A stretch of DNA of 37,915 nt from positions 1-37,915 of IMG/VR virus record IMGVR_UViG_3300018083_000069; one strand, given 5' to 3'. The stretch comes from a virus. Under the pieces are notes generated by a model, which was given only the letters and a program-made list of their open reading frames with translations, did no database searches and was not told the DNA's origin. The translations under genes were made by a program, and so were the position numbers. Position 1 is the first letter of the stretch. Every line of letters starts with the position of its first letter. Below, piece after piece: positions 13,299 through 37,600 of the stretch.

Positions 13299-13306
13299 GG
13301 TAGGAT

Positions 13307-13621
13307 GTGGAACTCCGGAGCCGTTTCGTAAACGCCCAAGTAGCCGAGATGATGGCTCGGCTTGGAATGCACTCGTGGAGACTCTCGGATGATGAGCGGT
13401 TCTTCATGCACCGTTACCTTTATCTGAGTGTCCTAGAGACGTTCAGAACACTAGGCATTCCCTACACAGAACAAGATAAGGTACTACCCACTGAAAATGC
13501 AATGCCTCTCCAGGTACCGGAGTTCATGAGGATTCCGGCAATCCCCCCGCCTGGGGAGGATAATACAGAAGCACTCCAAATCCCTATCCAGGAGACAAAT
13601 GGCCACGGTCGAGACGTATGA
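13307..13621 (+). CDS. Hypothetical protein (104 aa)
   Basis: GTG at 13307 behind GTGAGGTAGG; an overlapping ATG at 13305 is in a short dead frame. The N-terminal two thirds are helical (QVAEMMARLGMHSWRLSDDE, then RYLYLSVLETF). The C-terminus is Pro-rich (RIPAIPPPGEDN) and likely flexible. It overlaps the next gene by 23 bases. No known domain is recognised. Confidence 0.6.
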   Translation: MELRSRFVNAQVAEMMARLGMHSWRLSDDERFFMHRYLYLSVLETFRTLGIPYTEQDKVLPTENAMPLQVPEFMRIPAIPPPGEDNTEALQIPIQETNGHGRDV

Positions 13622-13943
13622 GCCAACGTGGAGAAAGTGCGATGAATGTGAGATCGCCTACTTCATCGGTGCAACCCTCAATCCGAGAAATCACCAATGG
13701 CGTCCAATCCCACTGTCACTATATCCGGATGCAGAGGGAAACTTTGAGATTGACTGGCGTCAAGACCTCAAAGAAGTCTGGGACGCAGATAACAACAGTC
13801 TCGGCGTTCATCCTGTTGTGGTTTACGGAGTGGGTATTTACCGACCCCACAATCCAAGCCACTTTCTGGATGATCTTCACGGAGAAGACCGACCCAGGCA
13901 GAGGCTCCATAATTTTCGACTCCTGATGGACGAAGATGACTAA
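13599..13943 (+). CDS. Hypothetical protein with N-terminal Cys pair (114 aa)
   Basis: ATG at 13599, preceded by AGGAGACAA. A CxxC (KCDECEIAYF, near residues 14-17) opens the protein; no second pair follows, though several His (H32, H86, H92 region) could complete a metal site. The middle is beta-rich with Trp and Pro. The following gene overlaps its end by 8 bases. Function unknown. Confidence 0.6.
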   Translation: MATVETYEPTWRKCDECEIAYFIGATLNPRNHQWRPIPLSLYPDAEGNFEIDWRQDLKEVWDADNNSLGVHPVVVYGVGIYRPHNPSHFLDDLHGEDRPRQRLHNFRLLMDEDD

Positions 13944-14112
13944 CTTCTTCGGGCTCGTCGCAATGTTCGCTGTCCTAGCAATCGGCAATCGTGCAGCCCA
14001 AGGCGATGAACTAGGGGTGAATAACAAGTTCATGTCATTCATTGCCAAATTCGGTCCAGTAGCCCCTCCCGGTATGACTTTCGCCTGGCAACGTTGGTGG
14101 AGAAATGATTAG
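13936..14112 (+). CDS. Small protein with hydrophobic N-terminus (58 aa)
   Basis: ATG at 13936 lies in the end of the previous gene (GAAGATGAC), stop TAG at 14110-14112. Residues 4-16 are hydrophobic (FFGLVAMFAVLAI), and the rest is soluble with a Trp/Arg-rich end (WQRWWRND). It could be a membrane-associated peptide. Its close coupling to genes on both sides supports coding. Confidence 0.5.
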   Translation: MTNFFGLVAMFAVLAIGNRAAQGDELGVNNKFMSFIAKFGPVAPPGMTFAWQRWWRND

Positions 14113-14311
14113 AGCACGAGAGGGACAACGAGTTCGTGACCTAGAATCAGGCATGGTTGGTACTGTAGTTCGTACCTGGAACATCGAAGTCGGTGAGTGG
14201 TGGATAGAAGTAGAGTGGGATAGATCCACAATGGAAGCTCACGAAGTCGAACCCTTCGAGGAAGATGTGGAACCCAGACCTTACTACAACGAAGATGTGG
14301 ACCATCACTGA
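14105..14311 (+). CDS. Hypothetical SH3-like small protein (68 aa)
   Basis: ATG at 14105 overlaps the previous gene. GQRVRDLESGMVGTVVRTW followed by EWWIEVEWD and HEVEPF is the strand pattern of a small SH3/KOW-like beta barrel, often used for protein or nucleic-acid contact. The C-terminus is acidic with His (EDVDHH). It sits immediately before the endolysin with a one-base overlap. The fold assignment is by pattern only. Confidence 0.55.
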   Translation: MIRAREGQRVRDLESGMVGTVVRTWNIEVGEWWIEVEWDRSTMEAHEVEPFEEDVEPRPYYNEDVDHH

Positions 14312-15201
14312 TGCTGGCAATTCCGGGGTATCAATGGATCGGGAACAACAATACGAACGGCGGAGATTACGTCGGTGGATATCCTGCAAGTATCTGCCTG
14401 CACATGACTGTGAGTTCTGGACTAAGCATGTCTTATGCCCAGAGTCACCAATACCCGCCTCATGCGTGGGCCAATGTCTACACAGGAGACAAGTGGCAGA
14501 GTCTTGATCTGAACAGATCCGGCAAAGCTCTGTATCAACCACCCTACACCAACTCGTACCTGAACCGTAAGTGGTACTGTATCCAGACCGAACTAGTTGG
14601 GAACCCTGTAGTTAATGTCGAGACCTATTCCAGACAACAATGCGATTGGATCGGTCGCAACGTTATCGCTCCACAAGTGCAAGCTTTGCGGAGTATTGGG
14701 CTGGACGTTAACCTTTCCAACGTTAGGTATCACACGGACAGTTCTGGAAGTGCGTCCGAATACTGGCATGGCAGAATGTCAGACGCCGAGTGGGCGGCAT
14801 TCGATGGAATTTGTGCACATATTGACGCTGTCGGCAACGACCACTGGGATTGCAGTGTCGAACGAACGGATTTAATGGTCGAGTCTGCAATCGCAGAACT
14901 CGGAGGAAGTGTAGGACCTGGTCCTGTAGTAGATGAGGAAGAAGACGATATGATGCGATACGTGGTACAAGTAGGCGGCGGTGGAAAACACGGCCCTGGT
15001 ACTATCTGGGCTATTTCACCTACTGAACCAAAGGCGTGGCCCATTGCTACACCGTACACAGTAAGCGTCCTACAGGCTCACGGAGTGTTGATGACCAGGC
15101 AGCAAATGGAGGCTAAGAAATACACGTTCGAGACGGACGGTGGGTCAATCACTTCTACTTACGAAGTGATGCCGGTACTAGAGAGCATTCCGGACAAGTA
15201 A
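14311..15201 (+). CDS. lysA: Endolysin: N-acetylmuramoyl-L-alanine amidase
   Basis: ATG at 14311; 296 aa. The N-terminal two thirds follow the amidase_2/PGRP plan of actinophage lysins: H31 in ICLHMTVSSG, YPPHAWAN (48-55), IQTELVG, H170 (ICAHIDAV) and NDHWDCS with H178 and D180 as likely zinc and catalytic residues. An acidic linker (VDEEEDDMM) leads to a C-terminal domain of about 85 residues with no recognised cell-wall motif, presumably binding the envelope. It cleaves the stem peptide from peptidoglycan at lysis and has no signal peptide, so a holin is needed. Confidence 0.78.
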   Translation: MLAIPGYQWIGNNNTNGGDYVGGYPASICLHMTVSSGLSMSYAQSHQYPPHAWANVYTGDKWQSLDLNRSGKALYQPPYTNSYLNRKWYCIQTELVGNPVVNVETYSRQQCDWIGRNVIAPQVQALRSIGLDVNLSNVRYHTDSSGSASEYWHGRMSDAEWAAFDGICAHIDAVGNDHWDCSVERTDLMVESAIAELGGSVGPGPVVDEEEDDMMRYVVQVGGGGKHGPGTIWAISPTEPKAWPIATPYTVSVLQAHGVLMTRQQMEAKKYTFETDGGSITSTYEVMPVLESIPDK

Positions 15202-16139
15202 TGAAGAAGGCTCTTATCGCCGGCCTGATCCTAGGCGGTGGGATCATAGGCTCTGGAAGTGTAGGAGCCCAGGTTCCCGACAATCAAAGACCGCCGCTAG
15301 TCACAGACTACGCTAACTATCCAGGAACGCCGCAAGCGTTTCTTACACCCGGTTGTGATTACACTGGGGTCCTTAATCCAACGTTCGGCACCCATAATTC
15401 GGTAACGAACGTAGACATCGGACCTGTGTCCGACCTCTCACTTCTTCCAGATTTGAACGAAGCCGATCTGGTTAGAATGGCATGGACAGACGTCGCACCA
15501 GAATGTGTAGGATCTGCTGTTTCGTTCGTCGTCAAGGTAGCACAAGGTCCAAGATTTGATCCGAACGTAGATCAGCTTACAGGACCAAACGGCGGTTACT
15601 CAGTGGAGTTTTTAGTGCCTGGGCCGGGAGAAATCACGTTCCCGATGCCAGACCTAGCTCGATTCGGTCTTGGCTGCAATTACCAGCTTGACGCGATTGT
15701 AGGCGTTCCGCTACAAGATGTTGGTCCGTCTGGTTCGTATTTCACTGAGGCTCTGCGCATTCAACAAGGTAAGCAGACAGCCGATAATCGTACTACAGTC
15801 ATCTCAGCTAAGAACGGTGAGTACCTAATCTGCACAGTACCTACGACAACGGTACCGGTAACTACACCACTAACAGTTCCAACAACAACAACACCGTCAA
15901 CCACAACAGCAACCACCATACCAACCACCAGTCCACCAACAACCACTCCGTTCATCGTAACACAGGCTACTCCTACACTTACAGCTTACGTCGAATATCC
16001 ACCGACAACTCCGAAACGTACTCCACTCGCAGAGACAGGCTTCTTTACGGACTTGGCTATTCTATTCGCCGTAGCGTTATTCATACTCGCTCTGATGTTC
16101 CTTGCGTTGTCGCACCCAGAAAGGATGAGAAGTGAGTGA
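15201..16139 (+). CDS. Sortase-anchored (LAETG) surface protein
   Basis: ATG at 15201; 312 aa. It starts with a signal peptide (KKALIAGLILGGGIIGSGS, probable cleavage after SVGA). A soluble beta-rich domain follows to about residue 210, then a Thr/Pro-rich stalk (213-250), then LAETG (276-280), a hydrophobic helix (DLAILFAVALFILALMFL) and a short basic-containing tail (HPERMRSE). This is the full layout of a sortase substrate, and LAxTG is the motif of class E sortases in high-GC Gram-positives. A phage protein displayed on the host wall could block superinfection. A role in lysis is also possible given the adjacent endolysin. Confidence 0.72.
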   Translation: MKKALIAGLILGGGIIGSGSVGAQVPDNQRPPLVTDYANYPGTPQAFLTPGCDYTGVLNPTFGTHNSVTNVDIGPVSDLSLLPDLNEADLVRMAWTDVAPECVGSAVSFVVKVAQGPRFDPNVDQLTGPNGGYSVEFLVPGPGEITFPMPDLARFGLGCNYQLDAIVGVPLQDVGPSGSYFTEALRIQQGKQTADNRTTVISAKNGEYLICTVPTTTVPVTTPLTVPTTTTPSTTTATTIPTTSPPTTTPFIVTQATPTLTAYVEYPPTTPKRTPLAETGFFTDLAILFAVALFILALMFLALSHPERMRSE

Positions 16140-16713
16140 GTACTCGTTAGTCTCGGTAGATATCGAAACTACAGGGCCGTCACCTTCGGTGTCTGAAATG
16201 TGTTCCATCGGTGCTGTAGCTCTCGATGAAGACTACAACCGTGCTGAAGTATTTACTGTTAACCTAGAGTTCCCGCCTGCTGCTGCCCACAAGTGGGATG
16301 ACAACACAATGGAGTGGTGGAAGCAATGGCCGGAACAATGGGAAGCGCATCGTTATAGCCCACTTCCGGTTGTAGATGCCATGCAAATGTTTGCCGACTG
16401 GCTAGATGAAATGGTTGAGGGCAAACCACTATTCGTAGCGTGGCCTGTAGGATTCGATTGGGGCTTCGTAAACGACTACTTCCATGACTACTTAGGGAGG
16501 AATCCGTTTGGCTACTCTCCTCTCTGTCTCAAGAACTATGCTGCTGGTGTACTTCGCAATCCAGCTATGCTTGGGGGTTCCAGAGAGGAAGCTTTTATGC
16601 CTGATGGCTGGCTCGTCACGCCCGAGAGTATCGGTCTTCTCCCGCATATCGCAATCAATGACGCGATTGCTCAGGCAATGATGATCCGCAACATAATGAG
16701 GTACACTGGCTGA
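16132..16713 (+). CDS. DnaQ-like DEDDh 3'-5' exonuclease
   Basis: GTG at 16132 overlaps the previous gene by 8 bases. The catalytic set is D10 and E12 (VSVDIETTG), D109 (PVGFDWGF) and H172/D177 (PHIAINDAIAQA), the DEDDh arrangement. 193 aa is a stand-alone exonuclease domain without the polymerase part. The family A polymerase here already carries an exonuclease, so this enzyme may act on host nucleic acid, mRNA or recombination ends. Confidence 0.82.
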   Translation: MSEYSLVSVDIETTGPSPSVSEMCSIGAVALDEDYNRAEVFTVNLEFPPAAAHKWDDNTMEWWKQWPEQWEAHRYSPLPVVDAMQMFADWLDEMVEGKPLFVAWPVGFDWGFVNDYFHDYLGRNPFGYSPLCLKNYAAGVLRNPAMLGGSREEAFMPDGWLVTPESIGLLPHIAINDAIAQAMMIRNIMRYTG

Positions 16714-21026: not shown

Positions 21027-22259
21027 TTAGTAATCCCAAGGCCACTTGTTCCAGTTATTGCTTACCCAGTTACCTACACCCTGCGCTTGATCCCATCCCC
21101 AAGGATCGCCGTTGGTATTTCTGGTACCCCAGAAGCCGTCGCCGCCACCTACACTTCTACCTAGACCTTGAAGCATATCCTGGACCTGCTTCAATCCAGC
21201 TTGATTGCTGTTGTAGGTCTGTAGTCCTTGAGGTCCGCCGGTCAACCAAGCATTTGCCGCACCAGGATCATTTGCACTGATAAGACCAGAGTCGATCATA
21301 CCAGTGAGCGCACTAGGATCACCTGTTCCTGGATACTTAGCCTGGAACTCTCGTTCATTGAAGGCGTTTGTGGCTGCAGAAGAACTCGCCGTATCTTCAC
21401 GGCCTAGGTTGAACTGTCGTACACCCTCATTGAACTTAGCCCAATCCAGCGAATCGTCCTTCGCAGCAGCGGCACGAGAGTTAGCTCCCGATTCTTGCAT
21501 AGCTGCAATATCCCTAGCGTTTGCAAGAGATGCTGCGTGTTCAGAAGCCTGTTCATTGAGCTTAGCCTGCTCGAAATCTCGTTGCCATTGTGCTGCAACA
21601 AGCTGGTTGTACATATCTACCAGATCGCTCTGTCTGACGTTCATCAGATCAGCGATCTTATTGATTACATCTGTTTCTTGTGTGGTTCCCGCGAGCTTGT
21701 TCTGACCAAGCATGTTGAGCAGATCGGACTCAAAGCCCGACAGCTTCAATGCTTCGTTTTGATGAGCGCTGGCGATCCCCATATCAGCCAGAGAACCCAT
21801 CTTAGCAACCCAGTCAGATAGGGTGCTTCCGTAGTTTGTTCTGGCTCCTTGGGCGTAGCCTAGCTGCTGGTTCGCTACGTCTTCCAACTTACCAGAGGAA
21901 ACTAGTCCTTGTCCAGACTGGCCTAGAGCCGCAGCCATCTGAGCGATGTAATCCCTGGATCCCTGCTGGTATCCTTGAATGTTCTTAATCGCTTGATCGT
22001 AGCCTTGATTCGTCAAATCTACTTGCTGATTCAGAGCGTTCTGTGTATCTGTTTTATTCGCTCCGAGAAGACCGTACAGGGTAGCGAAGTTGGTCCCGAT
22101 GTTCGTTCGCCCAGTGTTGCCGAAACCCTGAATAGCTTGTTCACTCGAAGCTGTGTTCTTCTGCGACAGTTCAAGCTGCCGCTGTAGTGCTGCTTGTTGG
22201 GGATCGTACTTTACCGCAATATTTGCTTGTGCGGCATCCCATAGACCTGGGTCAGCCAT
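21027..22259 (-). CDS. Putative internal virion protein (410 aa)
   Basis: ATG at 22259 overlaps the previous stop by 1 base. The protein is Ala/Gln/Asn-rich with long helical heptad-like regions (LELSQKNTASSEQAIQGFG; VAAQWQRDFEQAKLNEQASE) and a Trp/Asn/Gly-rich C-terminus (GNWVSNNWNKWPWDY). It resembles the 345-aa protein upstream in layout: repeated short helices plus a Gly-rich patch. Both probably belong to the ejected core or inner tail of the particle. This is inferred from position and composition. Confidence 0.62.
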   Translation of the reverse strand: MADPGLWDAAQANIAVKYDPQQAALQRQLELSQKNTASSEQAIQGFGNTGRTNIGTNFATLYGLLGANKTDTQNALNQQVDLTNQGYDQAIKNIQGYQQGSRDYIAQMAAALGQSGQGLVSSGKLEDVANQQLGYAQGARTNYGSTLSDWVAKMGSLADMGIASAHQNEALKLSGFESDLLNMLGQNKLAGTTQETDVINKIADLMNVRQSDLVDMYNQLVAAQWQRDFEQAKLNEQASEHAASLANARDIAAMQESGANSRAAAAKDDSLDWAKFNEGVRQFNLGREDTASSSAATNAFNEREFQAKYPGTGDPSALTGMIDSGLISANDPGAANAWLTGGPQGLQTYNSNQAGLKQVQDMLQGLGRSVGGGDGFWGTRNTNGDPWGWDQAQGVGNWVSNNWNKWPWDY

Positions 22260-23525: not shown

Positions 23526-23978
23526 CTACACCTCGGTCATTGTGAATGCGATCCAACCCCAGTCATTACCGTCAGAAGAAGTATTGCCTGCTGGAATAGT
23601 AATTGTCCACTGATGGTCACCAGCAGCTAAATTTCGTGCGACGTGAGCACCTGTAGTTTGTTTGTGCGAAGAAGCTTCGTTCATAAAGTAATAGCCCCAG
23701 GTACCTACGAAACCACCATCTAATTGAAGTGCGGTTCCGGCCATTCCTACAGCATTAGCCCAACAAGTAGCACCGTATGTGACTAGAACGTCCGCTCTAA
23801 ATGGGTGTGTAATAGTGAAGCTCTTGGGCCAAGCACCGGTAGATTGAACGTTGAAAACGTAAGTACGCCCGGATGCTCTAACTAGAGCGTCCTTGATGCG
23901 ACCGAAATTACCTACGGTGTAGGCGACCAACGATCGGTCGAATTGAGGTGGTGGAATGAGGTCTAAGTAAATACTCAT
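23526..23978 (-). CDS. Putative tail-tip or receptor-binding domain protein (150 aa)
   Basis: ATG at 23978 overlaps the stop of the nozzle-like gene (ATGA). It is an all-beta sequence with many aromatic and Gly/Thr residues (FNVQSTGAWPKSFTITHPF; HQWTITIPAGNTSSDGNDWG) and ends WIAFTMTEV. This is the look of a jelly-roll head domain on phage fibres or appendages. Its position straight after the second nozzle-like gene supports a tail-surface role. Host binding is inferred. Confidence 0.55.
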   Translation of the reverse strand: MSIYLDLIPPPQFDRSLVAYTVGNFGRIKDALVRASGRTYVFNVQSTGAWPKSFTITHPFRADVLVTYGATCWANAVGMAGTALQLDGGFVGTWGYYFMNEASSHKQTTGAHVARNLAAGDHQWTITIPAGNTSSDGNDWGWIAFTMTEV

Positions 23979-25546
23979 GCGGTCTTCACTGGCGGACTAG
24001 ACTTCGGCTCGAAGGATCGGTCTTCATTCATGAACGTAAGATCGTATACGGCAATGAAGCTACCCGACTTATGTTGAACTTTAGCCTGGAAGTATCTGCC
24101 GTATCCTGAGCCCCGAGCTTTAACATTCATTGCGCCGCTAACACTGGGTACTTCGGTTCTGGTAGTAGTCACGTTGTCGTCTGCGGTGTTGCTTACGGTA
24201 ATACTACCAGGCTGAAACGTGTTTACATCCCCTACAGACAAGCCGACTAGATGATTGCGCTTCTTCTTCATAGCTGAGTCGAAATCGTACTTCTTAGTAG
24301 TGAACGTACAATCGAAATCTACAGAGTTATCCTTGTAGACGTTAACACCGAACGACCAGATCTGATTCCCAGTAGAAGACCCGAAAAGCAGTGTTTCTGG
24401 GTAATGCTCATCCCAGAGAACTTCACCCAAGGCGGTTACTCCGCCGCCTAGTTTATACATCGTCCAGCCTTCGGTTCGCACATCGAATACAAGAGCTGTA
24501 TTGATGGTACCGTTGCTAGAAGGCATCCAGAGAATGTACTTGAAGTCCCAATAAGAGGCGTACAGATTCATCGCCGTCTCGGGCTTCCAGTAATCCCTGT
24601 AGGAATCGAAGAAGTCTCGGATTGGATCTGAAATGTTCTGGAACGTGACGCCGTCAGTACGAACTACACCATCTACACTAAGGAAGTAGATGATGTTATT
24701 GATGACTTTGACGGTTCCTCGACCTACACACCCGATCCTGTCAGAAATCAATCGGTACTGCCAGTTACTTGGTGGACCGTCGGCAGATACCATGTAGGTC
24801 TTCTTGGTCTTGAAGAAAAACATTTGCTCATTGAACGGCAGCATAGCTACCAAAAAGTCGCCGTCACCGAAATCCAGGTTGAAGTTAGAAAGTGCGGCTC
24901 CACCCCAGTCACTAAGGTTAGTAGCGGCTGAATACCACACTTTCGTCTCATGGCCAGAGGAATTGTACTTGCCCATCGTGTTGATGATCCAGCCACGGTT
25001 CTTGAAGAGACTGATTTGGGTGCCAATCGGCGAATTAGTTATAGGTCCGGCTTGACCTACAGAAGTATCGCCGTAGAAACCTATGACACCGGTAGCCATT
25101 TCGGCCGGGACCTGTGTAGGCCACCAACGAACTCCGGTACAGTTATACGCCGTAGCAGAGTTAACTCCACCATATTCAACCATTGACTGTAGAGAACTTA
25201 GAGGACCACCAGCCAGAGTTAGTCTAGTTGCAGCCCCACCGGCTGCGCTTAGTCGCCAGGTTTCGGTGTCGTCTGTTACGAATATTCGGTTAGAAAGCGA
25301 ACCTACACGAGTGCGCTGTAGGTAAACTACACGCAGTTTAGTGGGAGTATAGGGTGCCGTTATGGAAGCAACGAGGTTAGCACCCTTACGCTTCTCTAAA
25401 TAACCGTCGGTGTTGGTGTTGAAGTTGATGAGTTCGGCTAGTTCTTGGTCATCCTGAGAGTACGCTTCTGGAACTGAACCAGACAGAGCCGTGTTCATGC
25501 CCTTGAATTTCTTGATCGTGACTGGCTTGAACGCTCTACCCAGCAC
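23975..25546 (-). CDS. Nozzle-like tail protein, second copy (523 aa)
   Basis: GTG at 25546. It is a clear paralogue of the 574-aa protein at 26707-28431: both begin with IxKFKGMN and NxxGYLEKR and share SDRIGCVGRGTVKVI followed by YFLS-x-GVVR-DG. The repeated beta-blade pattern suggests a beta-propeller like T7 gp12-type nozzles. It is about 50 residues shorter and differs most in the C-terminal third. Two such genes in one podovirus suggest a hetero-complex or a divergent second ring. Confidence 0.68.
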   Translation of the reverse strand: MLGRAFKPVTIKKFKGMNTALSGSVPEAYSQDDQELAELINFNTNTDGYLEKRKGANLVASITAPYTPTKLRVVYLQRTRVGSLSNRIFVTDDTETWRLSAAGGAATRLTLAGGPLSSLQSMVEYGGVNSATAYNCTGVRWWPTQVPAEMATGVIGFYGDTSVGQAGPITNSPIGTQISLFKNRGWIINTMGKYNSSGHETKVWYSAATNLSDWGGAALSNFNLDFGDGDFLVAMLPFNEQMFFFKTKKTYMVSADGPPSNWQYRLISDRIGCVGRGTVKVINNIIYFLSVDGVVRTDGVTFQNISDPIRDFFDSYRDYWKPETAMNLYASYWDFKYILWMPSSNGTINTALVFDVRTEGWTMYKLGGGVTALGEVLWDEHYPETLLFGSSTGNQIWSFGVNVYKDNSVDFDCTFTTKKYDFDSAMKKKRNHLVGLSVGDVNTFQPGSITVSNTADDNVTTTRTEVPSVSGAMNVKARGSGYGRYFQAKVQHKSGSFIAVYDLTFMNEDRSFEPKSSPPVKTA

Positions 25547-26127
25547 TATATCGGCCCCATATCGAAGACTCGAACTCTACCGTAACTCATGACCGCCGTA
25601 ACGGCGTCTGCCCAAGCAGCACCAATGATACCGACGACATTAGTAGGGGCTCCGTCGAAACATTGCCATACGTTCTCACGCTTAGGCCAGTTGGAATAGT
25701 TAGTGACCAAGAGTTGAAGATCGTAGCCTGCGGCAGTCTGGTACTTAATTTCCATGAAACCTGTATTAGCAGCAATCAGGTTGACGTCATACTCTATCTT
25801 GTACTTGCGCCCTGCTACCTGTACAGGTAGCTGCGTTAATATCCATGCAGGGCTTACCGTGAGCGGAATGTCGTAGACCATAGCACCACGAACAAGACCC
25901 CAAGCCGTATTCCACGGAGGCTTCCAGGAGGGTGGTGTAGTTTTGTCGGTAAAGACCTCAAACCCACCGGTAGAAGACAGAAACGAAACCATCCCTACGG
26001 TTGGATTCGGTATCTCCGATGCTCGCTCAGTGGTATTAGCGAACTGCAAAACCATCTGATTCTGCAAGTACGAATTGATGTCAACGGCGTTGAAATCCTC
26101 GCCTGCTGCCCAAGTTTTAGTAGGCAT
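25546..26127 (-). CDS. Tail fibre-type protein, copy 2 (193 aa)
   Basis: ATG at 26127, stop overlapping the next start. It opens MPTKTWAAGEDFNAVDINSY and GMVSFLSSTGGFEVFTDKT, the familiar start of actinophage minor tail/fibre proteins in which a short N-terminal anchor precedes a beta sandwich. It is paralogous to the 192-aa gene just upstream (same PTKTW start, PSWKPPWNTAWGL, RVRVFDMGP end). The C-terminal variation suggests different ligands. Surface binding is inferred. Confidence 0.68.
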   Translation of the reverse strand: MPTKTWAAGEDFNAVDINSYLQNQMVLQFANTTERASEIPNPTVGMVSFLSSTGGFEVFTDKTTPPSWKPPWNTAWGLVRGAMVYDIPLTVSPAWILTQLPVQVAGRKYKIEYDVNLIAANTGFMEIKYQTAAGYDLQLLVTNYSNWPKRENVWQCFDGAPTNVVGIIGAAWADAVTAVMSYGRVRVFDMGPI

Positions 26128-26705
26128 TAGACCGGCCCCACATCAAAGACTCGAACACGGCCCCAGTTAGTAGTTGCGGCAAAATCTATTCGTCCTACAA
26201 TGCGAATGTCATTGGAGGTTTGGCCGATTACAATTTCTCCGAGACAGGCTCTGATCCACCATCCTTGGTTCTGAGCCCATTGACCGAACGTCCCACTAAG
26301 AGCCCCGTTCATGAACTGCATGGTGGCTGTTTGAGCCTGCGGAGCACCGATAGCGATATTTATGTCTAACTCTACTTTGTAATACCGTCCCGGTAGATTA
26401 CAAGGCAGAGTAGGCACGAGAAACTGGTTCGAGTTAGTCCAGGTAATGTCTGCGACGGCAGCATTATGCATTAGCCCCCAGGAGGTATTCCAAGGAGGAC
26501 GCCATGACGCCGGAGACGTCTTATCTGTGAAGATCTCAAGAGCACCCGTACTAATCAAGTACGAGGTCATTCCAACTGTAGGCGTTGGAACGGCAGTAGT
26601 TCTGGCAGCAGCGTCGGCGAAGACCTGAACAGCCTGTACTTGCAGGTATTGGTTGACGTCAGCGGCTTTGATTTCTTCGCCAGATTGCCAGGTTTTGGTT
26701 GGCAT
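26127..26705 (-). CDS. Tail fibre-type protein, copy 1 (192 aa)
   Basis: ATG at 26705. It starts MPTKTWQSGEEIKAADVNQY, continues GMTSYLISTGALEIFTDKT and ASWRPPWNTSWGL, and ends GRVRVFDVGPV, aligning along its length with the next gene. The two were probably made by tandem duplication and then diverged in the central strands. They lie between the two nozzle-like paralogues, so they are likely fibre or appendage subunits attached there. Confidence 0.68.
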   Translation of the reverse strand: MPTKTWQSGEEIKAADVNQYLQVQAVQVFADAAARTTAVPTPTVGMTSYLISTGALEIFTDKTSPASWRPPWNTSWGLMHNAAVADITWTNSNQFLVPTLPCNLPGRYYKVELDINIAIGAPQAQTATMQFMNGALSGTFGQWAQNQGWWIRACLGEIVIGQTSNDIRIVGRIDFAATTNWGRVRVFDVGPV

Positions 26706-26706
26706 T

Positions 26707-28431
26707 TTACCTCAACAGATATCCGGAGGTTAGCTTACAGTTATTGTCCGGTCCTGCCTTAGCGATGTTGGCGGCCGGAATTTGCTCGACTTTGCTTCCA
26801 CCTGGGCGGGAATATGGTTCAATACCGCGTTCTTCTGCAAGCCATGTTATGTCGTACACAGCCGAATAAGCCAAAGAACGCATCAATGTAACGGAGGTGT
26901 AGCAGTACCTGAAAGGACTTCTGGGAGGCTGGCCTAGAAAATTAGTGACTCCGAACTTGACAGGTTCATAATACGCTGTAGAATATCCGAACATATCGTC
27001 TGTGAAATTACTTATCTGGTAAATCGCACCACCGGCGGGCGTAGTATCCGTAGGTTCATTCTTAACGGTTACCCCGCACGCAAACATGCGCTTCTGTGCT
27101 ACAGGAGCACCAAAGTCCAGCTTCTTAGTTCTGAATGAGCTAGTAAAGGCTATGCCGTCATCAGACCAAGACTCAGAACTCATCTTCCAAATACGGTTCT
27201 TCTTGGTACCGGAGGTATAGTTTGTACCAAAGAAGAGAGAATCAGTACCTAGATCAGAGAACCTAGCCTCACTGAATGCTTGTACGTTATTAGCTAGCGT
27301 CCATCTAGTCCAAGTAGAAGACGCGATATCGAATACCAGCGCACCGTCATAAGCCCAACCCTCGCCAGTGTCCCTGGGCATCCAGAGGATATACTTATTC
27401 TGCCAGTGCGAGGCGTACATATTCATCGCCAAGCCTGGATCTTTGAAGTCTCGGTACTGTTCTAGCAGATCCTTGACGTTCTCCGAAATAAGCTCAGCCT
27501 GGGCGCCGTCGAAACGAACTACACCCTCCAGACTCAGAAAATAGAGCTTACCGTCGATAACCTTTACCGTACCGCGACCTACACAACCGATTCGATCCGA
27601 AATCAATTTGTATTGCCAGTCAGCAGGCTGTCCTTCTGGACTGACAGAGAAAATTTTACGTGTCTTGAAGCAATACAGTTGGTCATTGAACGGCACTGTG
27701 GCGATTAGATAATCACCGTCGCCAAAGTCCAGGTTAAAGTTTCGCATGGCGACGCCGCCGAAGTCCGCCAGATTCGTTGCTCCAGAATACCAGACTTTGG
27801 TTTCGTTACCGGTAAGTTCAGTACTGCCGTTTGAATTGATGACGAAGGCACGATCCTTGAAAATGGTGATATGCGTGCCTATAGGTGTGTTAGGTATCCA
27901 ACCCGGAGTTTCGACGATGTTATTAGCGACACCGATACTGAGGAATCCGCCCATCGCAGACGTTAAACCAGTACCTTGACGCACTACAGTTACGGTGTAG
28001 GCAGAGGCTGAATTGAGGCCGCCGTATTCAGCGGCCCATTGTGCTTTCGCAACCGCACCGCCACCGTGACCTATGTTAATACTTTGGTATTCGCCGGTCT
28101 GTACGTTAACTCGCCACAAATTAACGTCATCTGTCACCAGAATGTAGTTATACGTGGAAATGTTTAGCGTACCGCTGGCTGGTCCAAAAGTACCGCGTTG
28201 TATACCGATTATCCGTAGACCGCCAGTACCCACTGCGGGATTGACGATTCTAGTGAGTTCCTGAACTCCCCAGCGCTTCTCTAAATAACCTCTTGGGTTG
28301 ACATTGAAATTGTTGATGTCAACCATTTGATCTTCGGCGGGGCCGAAGGACTCACTCTTCACGGCAGAATTACGTGAAGCATTCATTCCTTTGAACTTAC
28401 GGATGGTGTGCTCTTTGAGGTCGCTACGCAT
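26707..28431 (-). CDS. Nozzle-like tail protein, first copy (574 aa)
   Basis: ATG at 28431, overlapping the adaptor gene by 8 bases, the usual adaptor-nozzle order of podoviruses. N-terminal IRKFKGMNASRN and PRGYLEKRWG are followed by repeated blades (FNLDFGDGDYLIATVPFNDQ; SDRIGCVGRGTVKVIDG). The length is below T7 gp12 (about 790 aa) but near other actinophage equivalents. It forms the tail tube below the adaptor ring and, by paralogy with the 523-aa protein, may pair with it. Confidence 0.7.
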   Translation of the reverse strand: MRSDLKEHTIRKFKGMNASRNSAVKSESFGPAEDQMVDINNFNVNPRGYLEKRWGVQELTRIVNPAVGTGGLRIIGIQRGTFGPASGTLNISTYNYILVTDDVNLWRVNVQTGEYQSINIGHGGGAVAKAQWAAEYGGLNSASAYTVTVVRQGTGLTSAMGGFLSIGVANNIVETPGWIPNTPIGTHITIFKDRAFVINSNGSTELTGNETKVWYSGATNLADFGGVAMRNFNLDFGDGDYLIATVPFNDQLYCFKTRKIFSVSPEGQPADWQYKLISDRIGCVGRGTVKVIDGKLYFLSLEGVVRFDGAQAELISENVKDLLEQYRDFKDPGLAMNMYASHWQNKYILWMPRDTGEGWAYDGALVFDIASSTWTRWTLANNVQAFSEARFSDLGTDSLFFGTNYTSGTKKNRIWKMSSESWSDDGIAFTSSFRTKKLDFGAPVAQKRMFACGVTVKNEPTDTTPAGGAIYQISNFTDDMFGYSTAYYEPVKFGVTNFLGQPPRSPFRYCYTSVTLMRSLAYSAVYDITWLAEERGIEPYSRPGGSKVEQIPAANIAKAGPDNNCKLTSGYLLR

Positions 28432-29687: not shown

Positions 29688-30878
29688 TTAGCCTTCGGTG
29701 ACGCCTGTCAAAGCTCCGAGACCGTTTCGACGACGAATCCCCATCTCGAAGTACCTCTTGATGAGAACGTCGTAAGCATCGGTATCGGCTACTTGGACGA
29801 ACATCGACCCCGTCTTGTCCTCGAAGTGCCAGTCCTTCGTGTGGTAGATTCGCATTTCCTTTTCCGGCACGAAGTACATCTTACCAGCAGGACAGTCCGG
29901 ATCTTCAACCACTGGAAGTTCTTGCGGACCGTAAATGAAGGGTAGGCCACGGAATCCACCCTTGAATTCGACGGTATTGTTCTGACGACGCTGCTGAACT
30001 AGCAGGTTGAAGTAGGCCAGCCGAACACCGAGAGACGTGAAGATTGCGGTAACCTTCCCACCACTCTTACGCACGGCGTCACAACGCTTGATCATGGCAA
30101 CTTCCGAAAGAGCGCCATTCAAAGCAAGCGTGTTCGCCTTCCAGACCGGATCGTTGACCCCAAACAAGTTCACCGAGTTGTTGGCCATACGATCCAGCCC
30201 GGAAGGCTCACGCTGAGTACCTGCTGCATAGTTGCCAGCACGGGTGAACATCTGCAAACCAGCGGATACAGCAGCGGCAGCACCGTCGAAGGTAACGGTC
30301 ATCGCGGTGTAGTCAACGGCTGTGATGTTCCTGGCAGCAGCAACAACGGCGCCGGTTGAAATGGTTACGACGTCAACAACAGCGTCGATTTCCAACCAGT
30401 AAGCGTCGTCCACGGTTACGGTATTCAGCGTACCTGTGCTCTGGATCGTAGCAAGGTTCCCAGTTCCAGAACCGTAGAAAATTCTGTTCTGGTCCTTTCC
30501 AACAGACATCTTGAGCACAGACATCTCATTGTCGACGGCCTCGACGAATGCGTCCATGTCGGACTCTGCGATTTCAAAGATCTGGCCCTGGATCCTTGCA
30601 CGGCCGTAGCCGTAGTACAAAGGAACCTGGACTTCCTTTGACCGAGAGCGACCAGGAGCACCGAGGGTCTCATTCTCTTGCCGGAAGGAAATACCCTGGT
30701 TCTTTCCGACGAGAATGGGGAAGTCCACGTACTTACCACCCGCCCGGTGCGTAACTCCCTTTGAAGAGGACTCAATGCGCTGGGTGAGTACGGTCTCATC
30801 CTGAATGTTCTTTGCGATCGGTCCCTCATAGTGAACCTTCAGGATTGGAGAGATTGAAGAGATATTAACGTTCGGCAC
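29688..30878 (-). CDS. Major capsid protein
   Basis: GTG at 30878, with CAAGGAGCAA upstream on the minus strand; 396 aa. It follows scaffold and portal, and its codons are C/G-ended with almost none of the TGTAG/CTACA motif, as expected for the most abundant protein. N-terminal VLTQRIESSSKGVTHRAGGK and the alternating beta/helix sequence (VQVPLYYGYGRARIQGQIFE; SDMDAFVEAVDNEMS) are compatible with an HK97-type fold seen in T7-like capsids. Position gives most of the confidence. Confidence 0.85.
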   Translation of the reverse strand: MPNVNISSISPILKVHYEGPIAKNIQDETVLTQRIESSSKGVTHRAGGKYVDFPILVGKNQGISFRQENETLGAPGRSRSKEVQVPLYYGYGRARIQGQIFEIAESDMDAFVEAVDNEMSVLKMSVGKDQNRIFYGSGTGNLATIQSTGTLNTVTVDDAYWLEIDAVVDVVTISTGAVVAAARNITAVDYTAMTVTFDGAAAAVSAGLQMFTRAGNYAAGTQREPSGLDRMANNSVNLFGVNDPVWKANTLALNGALSEVAMIKRCDAVRKSGGKVTAIFTSLGVRLAYFNLLVQQRRQNNTVEFKGGFRGLPFIYGPQELPVVEDPDCPAGKMYFVPEKEMRIYHTKDWHFEDKTGSMFVQVADTDAYDVLIKRYFEMGIRRRNGLGALTGVTEG

Positions 30879-31762: not shown

Positions 31763-33769
31763 TCAACTGGGGGCATTTTGTGGTCCTTGTGCTGGTGGTT
31801 GCGCTCCTGGGGCGCCAGGTGCTCCGCCCGGACCAGCGGGCTGTGGGGCAAGCATACCGGAAGCAGCCGCGTGCAGCAAACCTCTAGCCTGAATCATAAT
31901 AGAGTCATCGCATGGTATCTGTCCCATTCTAATGCCCTGGATTACCTGTGGTTGCCAAGGCAATTGAAGCATTGGATTGGTTTCTAGCAGGAAATAGACG
32001 ATGTGGATGAAGGTATGGGCGTTAAACAGCAAATCAAGGTTCTGATCTTGCTGAGTAGCCTCTTGTCCCTTCCTGTAGAAGTCATGACGCTGAATATGCT
32101 CCAAATGCGCCTGATAGTTACCTACGGGCTGCTGTAGTCCTTGTGCCATCTTGGCATTTTCTAGATCCGCTTCCCGAACATCGACCTGCATTTCCTCGTA
32201 AAGTCGATCCGTATCGCCAAGATCCAACGAGTTAAGAGCCATCGGAGCCGGAACCACGCCCATCTTGAGTAGCTCCATGATTTGGGCTTGTTGCGCAGGG
32301 TAGCTTCTCGGCGTAGCGCTTCCAGGTACAACTCGCCAATCCGTTTGTCCGTTAAGATCGGACTGCGAGAAGTTGAAGGCTTCAAAATTCTGATTTTGTC
32401 CTACAGTCTTGACCATATGCTGGGCATCCCAGTATTGGCCTACATACGAGAGGAAGTGTTGGATTACCTTCTGCCACCCCTTCTCCTTGTCACGAATCGT
32501 ATCCATAACAAGTGATGACTCGTCCTCCTGCAAATATGCGATGGCCGTCGCAGCAGTAACTCCGGGCGGTAATTGCTTCCCATCCTGAGTCTGTTGTGAT
32601 GCAAGCTCATCCATTTCTGTTCGTAGCAAAGTTAAATGATCTATGACGTATGCCGGAAGCCCAACAAGGGGTATTGGCTGGGGCGGATTAGTACCAGGCT
32701 TATGTAGAATGATTTCACCGGGGACGTTCCGGATCTTACGAGGCGAAATCGAGCCTTCCACAGCGGAAAGCATAGGTTTAGCCATCTTGTTCTTATCTTC
32801 GATGATTTGGGACCGAGTACGGTTGTACTCAAGCTGAATTGGGATAAGGTCGTTGATAAGGCTATCCGCATAGAACATCCCCGATTCTATGTACTGTCTC
32901 CGAGTGAATGGGAATTGGCCATGTGCGTACGGAAAAGGCTCAGCCTGTAGGACTTTACCCTTTATGTAGATCAGATGTAGTCCATCAGGGTAAGTTTGGT
33001 CATTTGGCTTGACCCAGACCTCTTTTACCTCAACACCCTTCTGCTTCGCCTGTTGATCAGTCATTCCCATGACCGTCATCAGACGAGATTCGACGGTGGA
33101 AGACGAAAGAGTCATCGTTTCGTCGACTTTTACGCCGTATTCCTTGCTCAAGAACTCCGGATCGCGAACTACACAATGCATAATCCACGGCTGACGCTCA
33201 ATATCGGGCTCGTCTAGGTTCGGAACGAATAAATGGAACGGAGAAACGGCTTCACAGACTGGTCCGCCCATAGCTCCGCCTACATTGACCGAATCCGAGT
33301 AGTAATCCTTCGAGAAAGCGGTTCCGCAAAGCAACATCCAGAAGTCTACACGCTTCATAACGTCCGCAACTTCGCAAACGTCCGTCAAATAATCAACAAG
33401 CTTATCGGCAGCACGAGCAGAAGAGACATCAATAGTATCCGTAGTATTAGGGTTAACGAATCCTCGAACCCGCTCCTTGTTGAGTCGGGCAAGTTCCTTT
33501 CGGACAATTTTTCGCACACGGTTGACGGTGATCCTTGTCTTAGAACGATTCGGAGGCGGCTCTATGAGCTGTCCGAGGCTTGTTGGCATCTGAGAATACT
33601 GCCATGTGACCCATTGCTTCCCAAAGAAGAAGGCAATGTTGATGTACCACTGACGCTCGAACTGCTGCCGAGCCATTTTTGCCTTGGAATAACGAGTTTC
33701 CCAAACAACGAGAGGTTCTGGCTCTCCTGCTTTACCGTTCTGAGAGACGTCTGTGTTTTCATCCATCAT
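31763..33769 (-). CDS. Portal protein
   Basis: ATG at 33769 (a TTG at 33775 with nearby GGGGG is an alternative start); about 668 aa. After a short acidic start it has an RQQFERQWYINIAFFFGKQW motif, then helices and beta strands typical of podovirus portals (KIRNVPGEIILHKPGTNPPQ; DELASQQTQDGKQLPPGVTA; DESSLVMDTIRDKEKGWQKV). The C-terminus is a Pro/Gly/Ala-rich tail. Twelve copies form the DNA channel and dock the terminase and adaptor. It follows terminase in the operon. Confidence 0.88.
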   Translation of the reverse strand: MMDENTDVSQNGKAGEPEPLVVWETRYSKAKMARQQFERQWYINIAFFFGKQWVTWQYSQMPTSLGQLIEPPPNRSKTRITVNRVRKIVRKELARLNKERVRGFVNPNTTDTIDVSSARAADKLVDYLTDVCEVADVMKRVDFWMLLCGTAFSKDYYSDSVNVGGAMGGPVCEAVSPFHLFVPNLDEPDIERQPWIMHCVVRDPEFLSKEYGVKVDETMTLSSSTVESRLMTVMGMTDQQAKQKGVEVKEVWVKPNDQTYPDGLHLIYIKGKVLQAEPFPYAHGQFPFTRRQYIESGMFYADSLINDLIPIQLEYNRTRSQIIEDKNKMAKPMLSAVEGSISPRKIRNVPGEIILHKPGTNPPQPIPLVGLPAYVIDHLTLLRTEMDELASQQTQDGKQLPPGVTAATAIAYLQEDESSLVMDTIRDKEKGWQKVIQHFLSYVGQYWDAQHMVKTVGQNQNFEAFNFSQSDLNGQTDWRVVPGSATPRSYPAQQAQIMELLKMGVVPAPMALNSLDLGDTDRLYEEMQVDVREADLENAKMAQGLQQPVGNYQAHLEHIQRHDFYRKGQEATQQDQNLDLLFNAHTFIHIVYFLLETNPMLQLPWQPQVIQGIRMGQIPCDDSIMIQARGLLHAAASGMLAPQPAGPGGAPGAPGAQPPAQGPQNAPS

Positions 33770-34007
33770 GGTCAATGTTCAGCACCCCCATCAAGAACCG
33801 TGCATCTTCATCGTCATCATCAACGAGAACTACAGGTTCGTCATCGAACTCATCGGGAACTACAAACACATCGGGCGGGGGTGATTCACCTTCGGTAACA
33901 GCTACACCTGCTTCATTAGAGAGCATCAAGGTCCAGATCCGAAGGGTTTGCTTCTGTTCCGAGTGAGAGAGGTTCATCCGAATCTGTTCGTTTTCTAGCT
34001 CTCGCAT
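33759..34007 (-). CDS. Hypothetical small acidic protein (82 aa)
   Basis: The frame is open to 34097. I start at ATG 34007 because GGAAGGAAG precedes it; ATG 33926 would shorten the overlap with the upstream gene from 92 to 11 bases. The N-terminal part is helical (RELENEQIRMNLSHSEQKQT). The C-terminal half is acidic (VPDEFDDEPVVLVDDDDEDA). It overlaps the portal start. Possibly a small packaging or portal accessory protein. Confidence 0.5.
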   Translation of the reverse strand: MRELENEQIRMNLSHSEQKQTLRIWTLMLSNEAGVAVTEGESPPPDVFVVPDEFDDEPVVLVDDDDEDARFLMGVLNIDHDG

Positions 34008-34434
34008 TTTCACTTCCTTCCACCGGAGCGGCACCCACCAACCCAGCCACAGCAGCGCGGAGGTCCCGGATAAGATTCCGAGCAATAGTGAGATCACGGT
34101 TTAGTCTCTCATTTTCCTCGTAAACTCGGCTAGCGCTTGCCTTAGACACGTACCCAGCGACAGAGGCCAATCCGACGAAGTCTTTTTCTCCGATGTACAT
34201 TCTACCGCCGTCGAAATCAACCCCGGTGTCCAAGAACCACACGTCGTCGATACTGCGGGAGACGAAACTACACGCAGGAAGCTGCAATCCAGTGGTAAGG
34301 AGCTGAAATCGCGCATCTTTTCCACCTACAGGGCTAACAACCTCTAGACTATCGACAGTTTCTTCCCAATCCGGATCGCCTTCTTTCATCTGTAGGAGCG
34401 TACTCCGACGATAAATCCTACAGTCCCTGTTCAT
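33916..34434 (-). CDS. Hypothetical protein of packaging operon (172 aa)
   Basis: ATG at 34434 overlaps the previous stop. The N-terminal region is beta-rich (FQLLTTGLQLPACSFVSRS; WFLDTGVDFDGGRMYIGEKD), followed by a helix (RVYEENERLNRDLTIARNLI) and a disordered basic/acidic tail (RARKRTDSDEPLSLG). It lies between the terminase/Acb2-like genes and portal. No family recognised. Confidence 0.6.
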   Translation of the reverse strand: MNRDCRIYRRSTLLQMKEGDPDWEETVDSLEVVSPVGGKDARFQLLTTGLQLPACSFVSRSIDDVWFLDTGVDFDGGRMYIGEKDFVGLASVAGYVSKASASRVYEENERLNRDLTIARNLIRDLRAAVAGLVGAAPVEGSENARARKRTDSDEPLSLGTEANPSDLDLDAL

Positions 34435-34673
34435 CAGATACGCTCCGGTCCGAGAGGTTGCGACACCGCGACGGCTTGGATTGAACGCATTAAAGCGTCT
34501 TCGAGATGTGTGACTGCTAGGGACTTAAGACGACCATCGGGGCAGACTTCGTTAACATGATGAGCAAGATCCCGAAAACGTTCACGTAGCTCAGCATAAA
34601 CATTAGCGACGTTAGCGTTTCCAGGATGAAATCCCATCGTCTGTTCAATTTGCTCTGCAAGTTGGTCGCTCAC
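34434..34673 (-). CDS. Acb2/Tad1-like cyclic-nucleotide sponge (79 aa)
   Basis: GTG at 34673 overlaps the terminase stop by 4 bases and has AGGAG seven bases upstream; a TTG at 34676 is an alternative. The core LRERFRDLAHHVNEVCPDGR then SLAVTHLEDALMRSIQAVA matches the helical pattern of the Acb2 domain (LA...i.e..PdgRe.slAlT.LEeA.mwa..AIA) found in phage anti-CBASS proteins that bind cyclic di- and trinucleotides. The length fits. It sits between large terminase and head genes, so it would be made late. The family call is by motif; activity is inferred. Confidence 0.68.
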   Translation of the reverse strand: MSDQLAEQIEQTMGFHPGNANVANVYAELRERFRDLAHHVNEVCPDGRLKSLAVTHLEDALMRSIQAVAVSQPLGPERI

Positions 34674-36139
34674 CAATCATCTCCTAACACTGGATGGTAC
34701 TTGTCGTTATCCGAACCTAGGAAGTCTCGTTCGGTGTACTCTTCATCTCTAGGAACAGTATGCGAGGGGGTCCTTGGCTCAAAATGAGGAACGTCTGCAC
34801 CTCCCCATTCGTTTTCCGGGCGAGAGCACACAAGGTATCTAAGTGCATCAACGGCGTGATCGTTTCTTTTTTCAGGGGCTTCCTTTGGTTGCTTGGCTTC
34901 CCTGGCCTTCATACTGGCAAATTGGGACCATCTATAAGTATGTAGCTCTCTGATAAGATGGGTACAATCGTTAGTAATGAGAAGTCCTCGGGTATCCAAC
35001 AAACGACGCACTCGATTAAGTCCGTAGGGTACGTCATTGTTTCCAAGCCCAATGAAGACATCGTCGCGAGAATACTCGGATTGAACCGACTCTCCGTTGA
35101 CTGCGTTTCTTTGGGAGATGGAAGGGTCGCCAACACGATAATTGACCTTGAACTGAATATTCCTGGTTCGCTCCCAGAAGTTAACTTCGGAGGCGTGTTC
35201 GGTGATTGTTCGTTCTGCCTCGTAATACTCATGGAAGACAATAATCCGTCCTTCATTGTCCACGTAAGCCCACAACCAAGCCGTCGGATTCCTGAGCCCA
35301 TGATCCATTCCGGTGATTATCGGGTGAACTACAGCACTAGGGTCAATACTATCGACGACATGGAGAGCAGGATTAAAACTAGGATAAACAAGACCAGAAG
35401 CAGCGACGAATTTGCCGTACTTCCTAGCTTCCCGTTCTTCGCTTGACATTCCAGCGAGCATTGCGTCAAGAGCCCCAGGAGGAAGGAAAGGGTTGTACTC
35501 TGAGGGTGCTTGGAACACTGCTGCTTCATCGTGTAGGTTTCCCTCGGTGAACGGTTCGTAGATTCTCCTGTAGACCCAAGTCATTCCGAGAACTGGCGTC
35601 ATTGTCATCCACCAATTACCCTGTACATCAACCAGTCGTAGCATGTTCTCGTTAAATATGCTTTCAGGCGGTTCTTCGTCGATCCAACAAAAATTACGAG
35701 AAGTACCAGCGTGCTTTTCAGTATCCATCTCGCCTGTGAGGAAGTCCATCTTACTGCCGTTAGCTAGAGTGAGAACACGACTTTGCTTATCGTAACTCTG
35801 CTCCCAACTTCCGGAGACAAGCGCGCTTCGAGGAAGCCATCTGTCGAGTTCGGGGAGCATAATTTTCTTGAGACCTTGCTCAATATCGACGCTAACTCCT
35901 CTGCCGAAAACGGGAGGTTCCGGTATTCGTCTGTAAGGATGATTACCAGTGAGCCAGAATGACGCCTCTGTGGCTCCGGAAACAGTTTTCCCTGCCCTGT
36001 TTCCTCCCAGAAGAAGACGTCCGATGGCGTCGCTGGCATGGAATTTCTCCTGAATTTCGTACGGCGTGTACCCGAGCAAGCTCGGCGACGTTACCCTTCT
36101 ACGAAGGGATCCAGCGAATTCTTCACGAAATGTCGTCAT
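34670..36139 (-). CDS. terL: Terminase large subunit
   Basis: ATG at 36139; 489 aa. Walker A is GGNRAGKT (45-52), Walker B with catalytic Glu is CWIDEEPPES (D154, E155/E156), and motif III-type MTMTPVLGM follows. The nuclease half begins near ITGMDHGLRNPTAW (about residue 275) and contains VGDPS. It translocates and cuts DNA with the small subunit, whose gene overlaps it by 17 bases. Length is typical for podovirus terminases. Confidence 0.93.
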   Translation of the reverse strand: MTTFREEFAGSLRRRVTSPSLLGYTPYEIQEKFHASDAIGRLLLGGNRAGKTVSGATEASFWLTGNHPYRRIPEPPVFGRGVSVDIEQGLKKIMLPELDRWLPRSALVSGSWEQSYDKQSRVLTLANGSKMDFLTGEMDTEKHAGTSRNFCWIDEEPPESIFNENMLRLVDVQGNWWMTMTPVLGMTWVYRRIYEPFTEGNLHDEAAVFQAPSEYNPFLPPGALDAMLAGMSSEEREARKYGKFVAASGLVYPSFNPALHVVDSIDPSAVVHPIITGMDHGLRNPTAWLWAYVDNEGRIIVFHEYYEAERTITEHASEVNFWERTRNIQFKVNYRVGDPSISQRNAVNGESVQSEYSRDDVFIGLGNNDVPYGLNRVRRLLDTRGLLITNDCTHLIRELHTYRWSQFASMKAREAKQPKEAPEKRNDHAVDALRYLVCSRPENEWGGADVPHFEPRTPSHTVPRDEEYTERDFLGSDNDKYHPVLGDDW

Positions 36140-36818
36140 CGTTTAGTACCAATTCCAGTACGTTCTCGGTTTTTTCGGAAACTACAGCTCCTACAGCCCT
36201 AAGCTTACGAGCCGGTGGCGTGCCGTGCACGAGCAAGTAATCGAAATCGTTGGCGAGAGCTGAAAGCACGTTTCTGTCGACGTGGGCCTCAAGAATTTCG
36301 AGAATCCCTTGCATGAGATTAGCTGCCTCCGATTTATCGGAGCTTGTTCCTTCTGTTAGCTCTCCCGTTAGCGTTAAGTAAAGCTTGATGGCACTAACGT
36401 TTCCACCAGAAGCTTCACGGCTTAGCGCTTGGTGAACTCTAGAACGCTCGTCTGGTAGAATTTGTTCAAGACGTGTCTGTAGGGCACTCTGGAACAACGG
36501 GTTCTTAAGCCAAGCGTTGTGCTGTGAGAGCGTGATTCCGAAGCTCTTCATCTTAGCCGCAATTGGTCGACCATCTCCGGCGGAGCATAGTAAGTCGATC
36601 CATCGCACTTGTTTCGGAGTCAGAGTAGGCGTCCCGTCTACAGGAACCCCGTTAGCGCTCAGGTACTTAAGGTACCTCGCGTTAGCGAAGACTTCGGCTA
36701 GGCAGGTTTCAACGAGGTACTCTCTGAAGAGTTCTTCGTCAGACGTCGGCAAGCGACGGAACTTCCAGTAATACGTCTCAATGAGAGCTACAGTCGACTG
36801 GACTTGCTTACTGGCCAT
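36123..36818 (-). CDS. terS: Terminase small subunit (putative)
   Basis: The ATG at 36818 has GAGGAAATCA just upstream; the frame stays open to 36830 but that extension is the ribosome site. The 231-aa protein has an HTH-type centre (LTPKQVRWIDLLCSAGDGRP; ITLSQHNAWLKNPLFQSAL) and a helical stretch ALSREASGGNVSAIKLYLTL with ALSREASGGNVSAIKLYLTLTGEL-type oligomerisation pattern, common in small terminases. It directly precedes TerL. It should recognise the packaging site, which may lie in 37213-37753. Confidence 0.7.
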   Translation of the reverse strand: MASKQVQSTVALIETYYWKFRRLPTSDEELFREYLVETCLAEVFANARYLKYLSANGVPVDGTPTLTPKQVRWIDLLCSAGDGRPIAAKMKSFGITLSQHNAWLKNPLFQSALQTRLEQILPDERSRVHQALSREASGGNVSAIKLYLTLTGELTEGTSSDKSEAANLMQGILEILEAHVDRNVLSALANDFDYLLVHGTPPARKLRAVGAVVSEKTENVLELVLNDDDIS

Positions 36819-37212
36819 TGATTTCCTCAAAAAAGCGAATAAGTGTACTCGGGATGCGGTAATGGTGTAGGGTGTAGTTAATGTCTATCAACGGCATACA
36901 TGCCTTCTCACTGAACTCAGCTCCGCTGAGGCCACTCGAACGCAGGAATTCAGCGAATTCTGGGCCGTTACTGGGAACTACAGTTACACCCCGAGGCCAA
37001 TTCTCTCTGCGAACTGAAGTTCGGAAGTCATGGTAGGCAGGAATTAATTCGACGGCGTCAGGGAACGTCGAGAGGAAGCGCGGGTGTAAATGGTGAGGAA
37101 TGCCTTTTTCTTGGGCTTGAATGAGGACTACAGCTAGAGCACACTGATGAGCCTGTTCGAGTTGAGTTAAACCGAGACGGTTTCGGAAAGAGACCAATGG
37201 GTTATTAGTCAC
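36808..37212 (-). CDS. Tandem helix-turn-helix regulator (134 aa)
   Basis: The frame extends to 37437, but GTG 37212 has GGAG five bases upstream and the protein-like sequence begins there. Residues near 13-36 (GLTQLEQAHQCALAVVLIQA then QEKG) match the XRE HTH spacing G-L-S/T-Q...E..A...I...E.G. Near residue 95-125 a second similar unit (SGLSGAEFSEKACMPLIDIN) precedes YRIPSTLIRFFEEIN. It is the first gene of the leftward operon, facing the palindrome array at 37420-37600, and its stop overlaps the small terminase start. It may repress or activate the control region. Confidence 0.55.
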   Translation of the reverse strand: MTNNPLVSFRNRLGLTQLEQAHQCALAVVLIQAQEKGIPHHLHPRFLSTFPDAVELIPAYHDFRTSVRRENWPRGVTVVPSNGPEFAEFLRSSGLSGAEFSEKACMPLIDINYTLHHYRIPSTLIRFFEEINGQ

Positions 37213-37419: not shown

Positions 37420-37600
37420 GTAATACAACTGTAACAATCGTAACAGGCCCGTAATATAGCACGCATTATATTACAATGTCATGACTTTGTAACAATCGTA
37501 ATATAGCGAGCACTATATTACGAATCGTAACACTTGTCACACGATCGCAGTATTACCGTAATATTTCGGTTCGTCACAATATTACAAGATCTTGTAACAC
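37420..37600. repeat. Palindrome/direct-repeat array (operators or origin)
   Basis: Within 180 AT-rich bases: GTAATATA/TATATTAC around an 8-base spacer (37451-37474); TCGTAATATAG/CTATATTACGA, 11-bp arms with 6-base spacer (37496-37523); TATTAC-C-GTAATA (37551-37563); and TTACAAGATCTTGTAA, a perfect 16-bp palindrome (37582-37597). GTAACAATCGTAA occurs twice, at 37431-37443 and 37489-37501. The array lies between the leftward operon and the rightward gene at 37754. Operators for a dimeric regulator or replication iterons are both possible. Confidence 0.75.

Follow-up and report, generated by a model that had tools for sequence, protein, structure and literature searches.

Inside the packaging operon on the minus strand of the window (the whole stretch of viral DNA analyzed, 37,915 nucleotides), a gene encoding a 79-aa protein lies directly behind the large terminase subunit gene, terL. 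The features of this operon and of the replication genes are as follows.

34434 to 34673, minus strand: acb2-like gene, 79 aa, GTG start at 34673-34671 and stop ending at 34434 (PF24729, PHROG 1454, AlphaFold, Foldseek)
34681 to 34685, minus strand: AGGAG, likely ribosome-binding site in the 3' end of terL, 7 nt before the acb2 GTG (read directly)
34670 to 36139, minus strand: terL, large terminase subunit (PF03237, 1.3e-9; phrog_2, 1.3e-24)
36123 to 36830, minus strand: probable small terminase subunit (phrog_24579, 4.4e-9)
33916 to 34434, minus strand: 172-aa "YIG" gene, function unassigned, right flank of the terL cargo site (aligned across six relatives)
31763 to 33775, minus strand: portal protein (phrog_156, 2.9e-41)
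29688 to 30878, minus strand: major capsid protein (phrog_14242, 4.2e-73)
10441 to 12207, plus strand: family A DNA polymerase, polA (PF00476, 1.6e-56)
12207 to 12554, plus strand: 115-aa gene directly 3' of polA, counterpart of the gene behind acb2 in the relative G001 (36% identity)
12529 to 12864, plus strand: WhiB-like regulator (PF02467, 8.2e-10)

The open reading frame contains both LAHHVNEVCPDGRLKSLA and AVTHLEDALM, the two motifs named in the original prediction. It is under purifying selection (pN 0.14, pS 0.72 against an 80%-identical relative), which together with the matches to PF24729 (8.4e-14) and PHROG 1454 (9.1e-18) argues against a chance reading frame. On the minus strand terL ends with ...GTG TTA GGA GAT GAT TGG TGA, and the predicted 4-base overlap with the large terminase was read as GTGA at 34670-34673, while the 3' end of acb2 overlaps the start of the 172-aa gene by 1 nt. 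The latter gene gave no match in a Pfam search and is followed by the portal gene, a gene in the scaffold position and the capsid gene. A place within the terS-terL-portal operon is therefore supported, but the statement that the gene abuts head genes holds only approximately, since ∼660 nt, which include the 172-aa gene, separate acb2 from the portal start (33775). Promoter and terminator patterns showed no excess over shuffles; three sigma-70-like promoter matches cluster at 37453-37540 on the minus strand, just upstream of the minus-strand operon, in a region whose total does not exceed that of the shuffles. Searches for tRNA and Rfam matches returned none.

The recognizable replication genes (PD-(D/E)XK nuclease, AAA ATPases, and family A polymerase) and the WhiB gene occupy the plus strand at 6 to 13 kb. 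The virus is an actinophage, as had been proposed: it has the WhiB gene, and the isolates closest to it in capsid protein infect Arthrobacter, Microbacterium, and Cellulosimicrobium. No provirus or host came to light when the GTDB genome collection was scanned with the capsid protein. Two paralogous pairs, of 523/574-aa and 193/192-aa proteins, are encoded on the minus strand at 23975-28431, suggesting a tandem duplication; the 523- and 574-aa copies both match one single gene in G001 and likewise in another relative, G011.

The 79-aa protein had been assigned to the Acb2/Tad1 hairpin family, and it scores 52 bits against Pfam PF24729 (Acb2_Tad1_hairpin), for which the curated cut-off is 27; T4 Acb2/Vs.4 matches the same model with 71 bits. 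NCBIfam gave no match. A single-protein phmmer search against PDB sequences was too weak (0.94) and a profile was needed: one made from a few relatives matched the solved "Acb2 homolog 43" (9ptq) with an E value of 4.2e-7. Haemagglutinin matches in the PDB sequence and profile searches were rejected as coiled-coil noise. Acb2 proteins that have been tested by experiment are only 16 to 24% identical to it. The call of family and place was sound, and the protein is an ordinary further member of the known Acb2 family.

Three T4 ligand contacts, Y8, T68, and F82, are usable as residue tests. With the T4 Acb2 mutant Y8A, described as binding-deficient, Panoptes is no longer triggered (PMC12657218, PMC12657230), and T68M is described as lowering affinity (PMC12657230). 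The conserved Thr of the second long helix (T68 in T4) is present as T55. A MAFFT alignment and the VIA end points agree in placing T55 opposite T68 and F15 opposite Y8, so that the window protein has Phe and not Tyr at this position; the Pfam ranges instead place H16, not F15, opposite Y8. The expectation of conserved nucleotide-contacting residues is therefore borne out for the Thr, while the aromatic at the Y8 position depends on the alignment (F15 or H16). R30, R48, K50, and T55 are each kept in at least 60 of 64 homologues, and W63 in 58 of 63, with the window protein carrying Arg at position 63; conservation at positions 9 to 16 is inflated because this stretch served as the search pattern. 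The T4 loop insertion falls at the hairpin tip in one alignment and inside the first long helix in another. The hairpin-tip placement fits the structure better, but as the two alignments differ here, residues of the first helix (R30 with K23/K26) can be paired only tentatively.

The AlphaFold model (64 sequences, mean pLDDT of 90) has helices at residues 3 to 13, 20 to 43, and 48 to 70, that is, a short N-terminal helix and two long antiparallel helices with no extra domain, in the helix order described for Acb2 (PMC10419184). The top Foldseek match in the PDB is cGAMP-bound T4 Acb2 (7uq2; probability of 0.84, with an E value of only 1.1), and VIA aligned residues 13 to 73 of the model on residues 6 to 86 of a 7uq2 chain with a Z of 6.4 and an rmsd of 2.8 over 61 residues. 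Because several unrelated helical hairpins reach a similar VIA Z, the fold is consistent with Acb2 but not decisive, and fold searches alone do not discriminate among helical hairpins. The anticipated structural match to Acb2 was in this sense obtained only in part: the best match and the three-helix model agree with it, but the E value and the shared Z do not single it out.

Comparison with known proteins shows the same mixture of likeness and divergence. T4 Acb2 (Vs.4, 7uq2) shares with the window protein the Pfam family, the helix order, and the Thr (T55/T68), and in the MAFFT and VIA alignments its binding-site Tyr (Y8) faces another aromatic (F15), but identity is 19%, the window hairpin is ∼20 residues shorter, and in these alignments Phe stands in place of the T4 Tyr; the T4 gene lies in a small-gene (vs) region whereas the window gene lies in the packaging operon. 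Pseudomonas phage Acb2 (p26; 8h2j, 8h2x, and 8ixz) has the same helix order, an aligned aromatic (Y11), a Lys/Arg 15 residues on (K26/R30), an Arg (R67/R48), and the Thr (T74/T55), but is 16 to 21% identical, longer than the window protein, and low in the VIA table (Z of 5.7 to 5.9). Acb2 homolog 43, the closest solved relative by sequence in the profile search, is similar in length and shares a P(D/E)GR.KS motif, but identity is 24% and its aligned stretch lacks an aromatic at the Y8 position. Statler gp57, Yotsuba gp61, and the hairpin genes of cluster E mycobacteriophages resemble the window gene in family, size, and kind of host, but lie in replication or small-gene regions and not behind terL.

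A first scan gave twelve viral contigs that encode a related TerL, and in these and in later finds we read the junction behind terL. The junction holds acb2 in the window, in a 99% contig, and in G011, acb2 plus a gene for a 179-aa protein in L002, the 179-aa gene alone in L005, an HNH_3 endonuclease gene plus acb2 in G024, and two tiny ORFs in L009 and L011; it is empty in L156, L154, G001, and three fragments of the G001 lineage. Relatives with 48 to 77% identical TerL lack acb2 at this site, and a homologue of the 172-aa gene comes next wherever the junction is complete. Such variable occupants before a constant gene indicate that the terL junction serves as a cargo site, in which the presence of acb2 is optional. 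The 179-aa gene (L002, 5249-5788; L005, 4658-5197) encodes an N-terminal hydrophobic stretch and has no Pfam match. The HNH_3 endonuclease gene of G024, found between terL and acb2 at 2784-3230 of L157 (IMGVR_UViG_3300020020_000139), is a possible vehicle for mobility at the cargo site.

In G001, a relative of 43.3 kb, the replication and structural blocks are syntenic with those of the window, but acb2 is missing behind terL. When the complete record was scanned for the family, a copy turned up on the plus strand at 21286-21531. It sits between polA and a 108-aa gene and shares 4 nt with each of them, the overlap with the polA stop reading ATGA; this operon carries replication genes and lies on the strand opposite to the terL operon. 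No acb2 is present behind polA in the window or in G011 and G024, both also syntenic with it, where 115-, 97-, and 101-aa counterparts of the 108-aa gene directly follow polA. Identity to the window 115-aa gene (36% for G001 and 28% for G011) is weak, and the correspondence is positional. Contigs from several data sets show that the G001 lineage carries nothing at the terL site, whereas acb2 behind polA was found in a single contig, because the other contigs of this lineage are fragments without polA. The plus-strand half varies in gene order as well: a gene block 3' of polA in the window (13599-16713) precedes the replication block in G001 (11518-13915). The occupied and empty sites show that acb2 stands in different operons within one phage group, which keeps the gene and not its place; probably, it is also expressed at different times.

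Either one gene moved between the operons, in a direction that we can only infer, or close copies entered the two sites by exchange. In the tree, acb2 from the window, L002, G001, G011, and G024 falls in a single clade (100/98), separate from 62 other phage homologues; inside this clade the window, L002, and G001 genes group together (96/80). The single clade argues against separate horizontal acquisitions of close copies in place of movement of a resident gene. Separate acquisitions are nonetheless nearly an even proposition, given that acb2, at 64% identity, ranks second in similarity among the gene pairs of the window and G001 (capsid, 66.5%; TerL, 54%; polA, 42.5%) and that an HNH endonuclease gene sits beside it in G024, although the excess in acb2 identity is modest.

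A hand-picked, not random, set of isolated phages shows a similar spread of sites. Hairpin genes are found just before the terminase in Nairb, Nergal, and Syra333, between protease and capsid in NoodlelyBoi and Quhwah, directly behind the portal in ScarletRaider, behind the holin in Bing, and in replication or small-gene regions in Namago, Tripp, Bantam, Syleon, and Yotsuba. Arthrobacter phage Jasmine (NC_041875.1, 4149-4672) has two tandem hairpin genes (9 and 10) directly upstream of terL, the second a weak match without the N-terminal motif; this phage is cultivable and usable for expression timing. In a census of PHROG neighbours, which is qualitative and gives no per-locus proportion, head, tail, terminase, and holin neighbours recur. 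Some members from actinophages, with Statler gp57, Yotsuba gp61, and those of cluster E mycobacteriophages among them, already bear the name Acb2 or cyclic nucleotide sequestering protein in their annotation (PMC13348362, PMC11953737). A late-operon position of acb2 is therefore neither unique nor fixed, and the packaging-operon location originally emphasized is true of the window but is neither constant, given the polA site in G001, nor exceptional among actinophages.

From its family, predicted fold, position, gene overlaps, reciprocal occupied and empty sites, single-clade ancestry, and purifying selection, we consider it likely that the gene encodes an Acb2-type cyclic-nucleotide sponge. 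Copies of the protein, each with a short helix at the N terminus and then a helical hairpin, would assemble, presumably into a hexamer, and would bind the cyclic di- and/or trinucleotides that CBASS-like signaling enzymes of the host produce, so that effectors would not be switched on. Since acb2 is a small cargo gene directly behind terL, has its own AGGAG within terL, and begins in the GTGA stop/start overlap, it should be produced together with the terminase and head proteins.

A sponge of the hairpin family for a signal other than that of CBASS, such as a Thoeris gcADPR-type molecule, the cyclic oligoadenylates of type III CRISPR, or a Panoptes-type decoy nucleotide, seems improbable. PF24729 covers both Acb2 and Tad1, which have the C-terminal helical hairpin in common, Tad1 binds gcADPR in addition to cyclic di- and trinucleotides (PMC12043709), and the GTDB scan returned no host. 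However, the N-terminal antiparallel β-sheet of Tad1 (PMC12043709) is missing from the 79-aa model, which has no strands and is in this respect Acb2-like and not Tad1-like, and the best structural match is Acb2. That the protein is instead a packaging accessory working with TerL, as its translational overlap with terL and its location might suggest, is very hard to reconcile with the relatives that lack acb2 behind a similar TerL, the G001 copy behind polA, and family members far from any terminase.

With an Acb2-type sponge as the preferred reading, the time at which it is made becomes of interest. Mutations in the capsid help phages that lack acb2 to evade CBASS (reviewed in PMC10419184), and the weaker effect of T4 Acb1 has been suggested to reflect its later expression (PMC12657230), which makes sponge timing a live question. 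One speculative and rather unlikely explanation is that evolution re-times the sponge, placing acb2 behind polA or terL to match the moment at which the cyclic-nucleotide alarm of the host rises, for example, through capsid or packaging products, or to avoid an early sponge that would be punished by decoys such as Panoptes. If so, late counter-defense cargo would insert at the 3' junction of terL, possibly spreading with a neighboring HNH endonuclease.

These results extend the Acb2 family to a group of uncultivated actinophages and bring the new observation that the operon of acb2 is not fixed among close relatives, a caution that the location of a single gene is a poor guide to its timing or function. 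They also provide a natural experiment, with the same sponge gene in apparently early and late operons of otherwise syntenic phages, by which the question of when a sponge must be made becomes testable.
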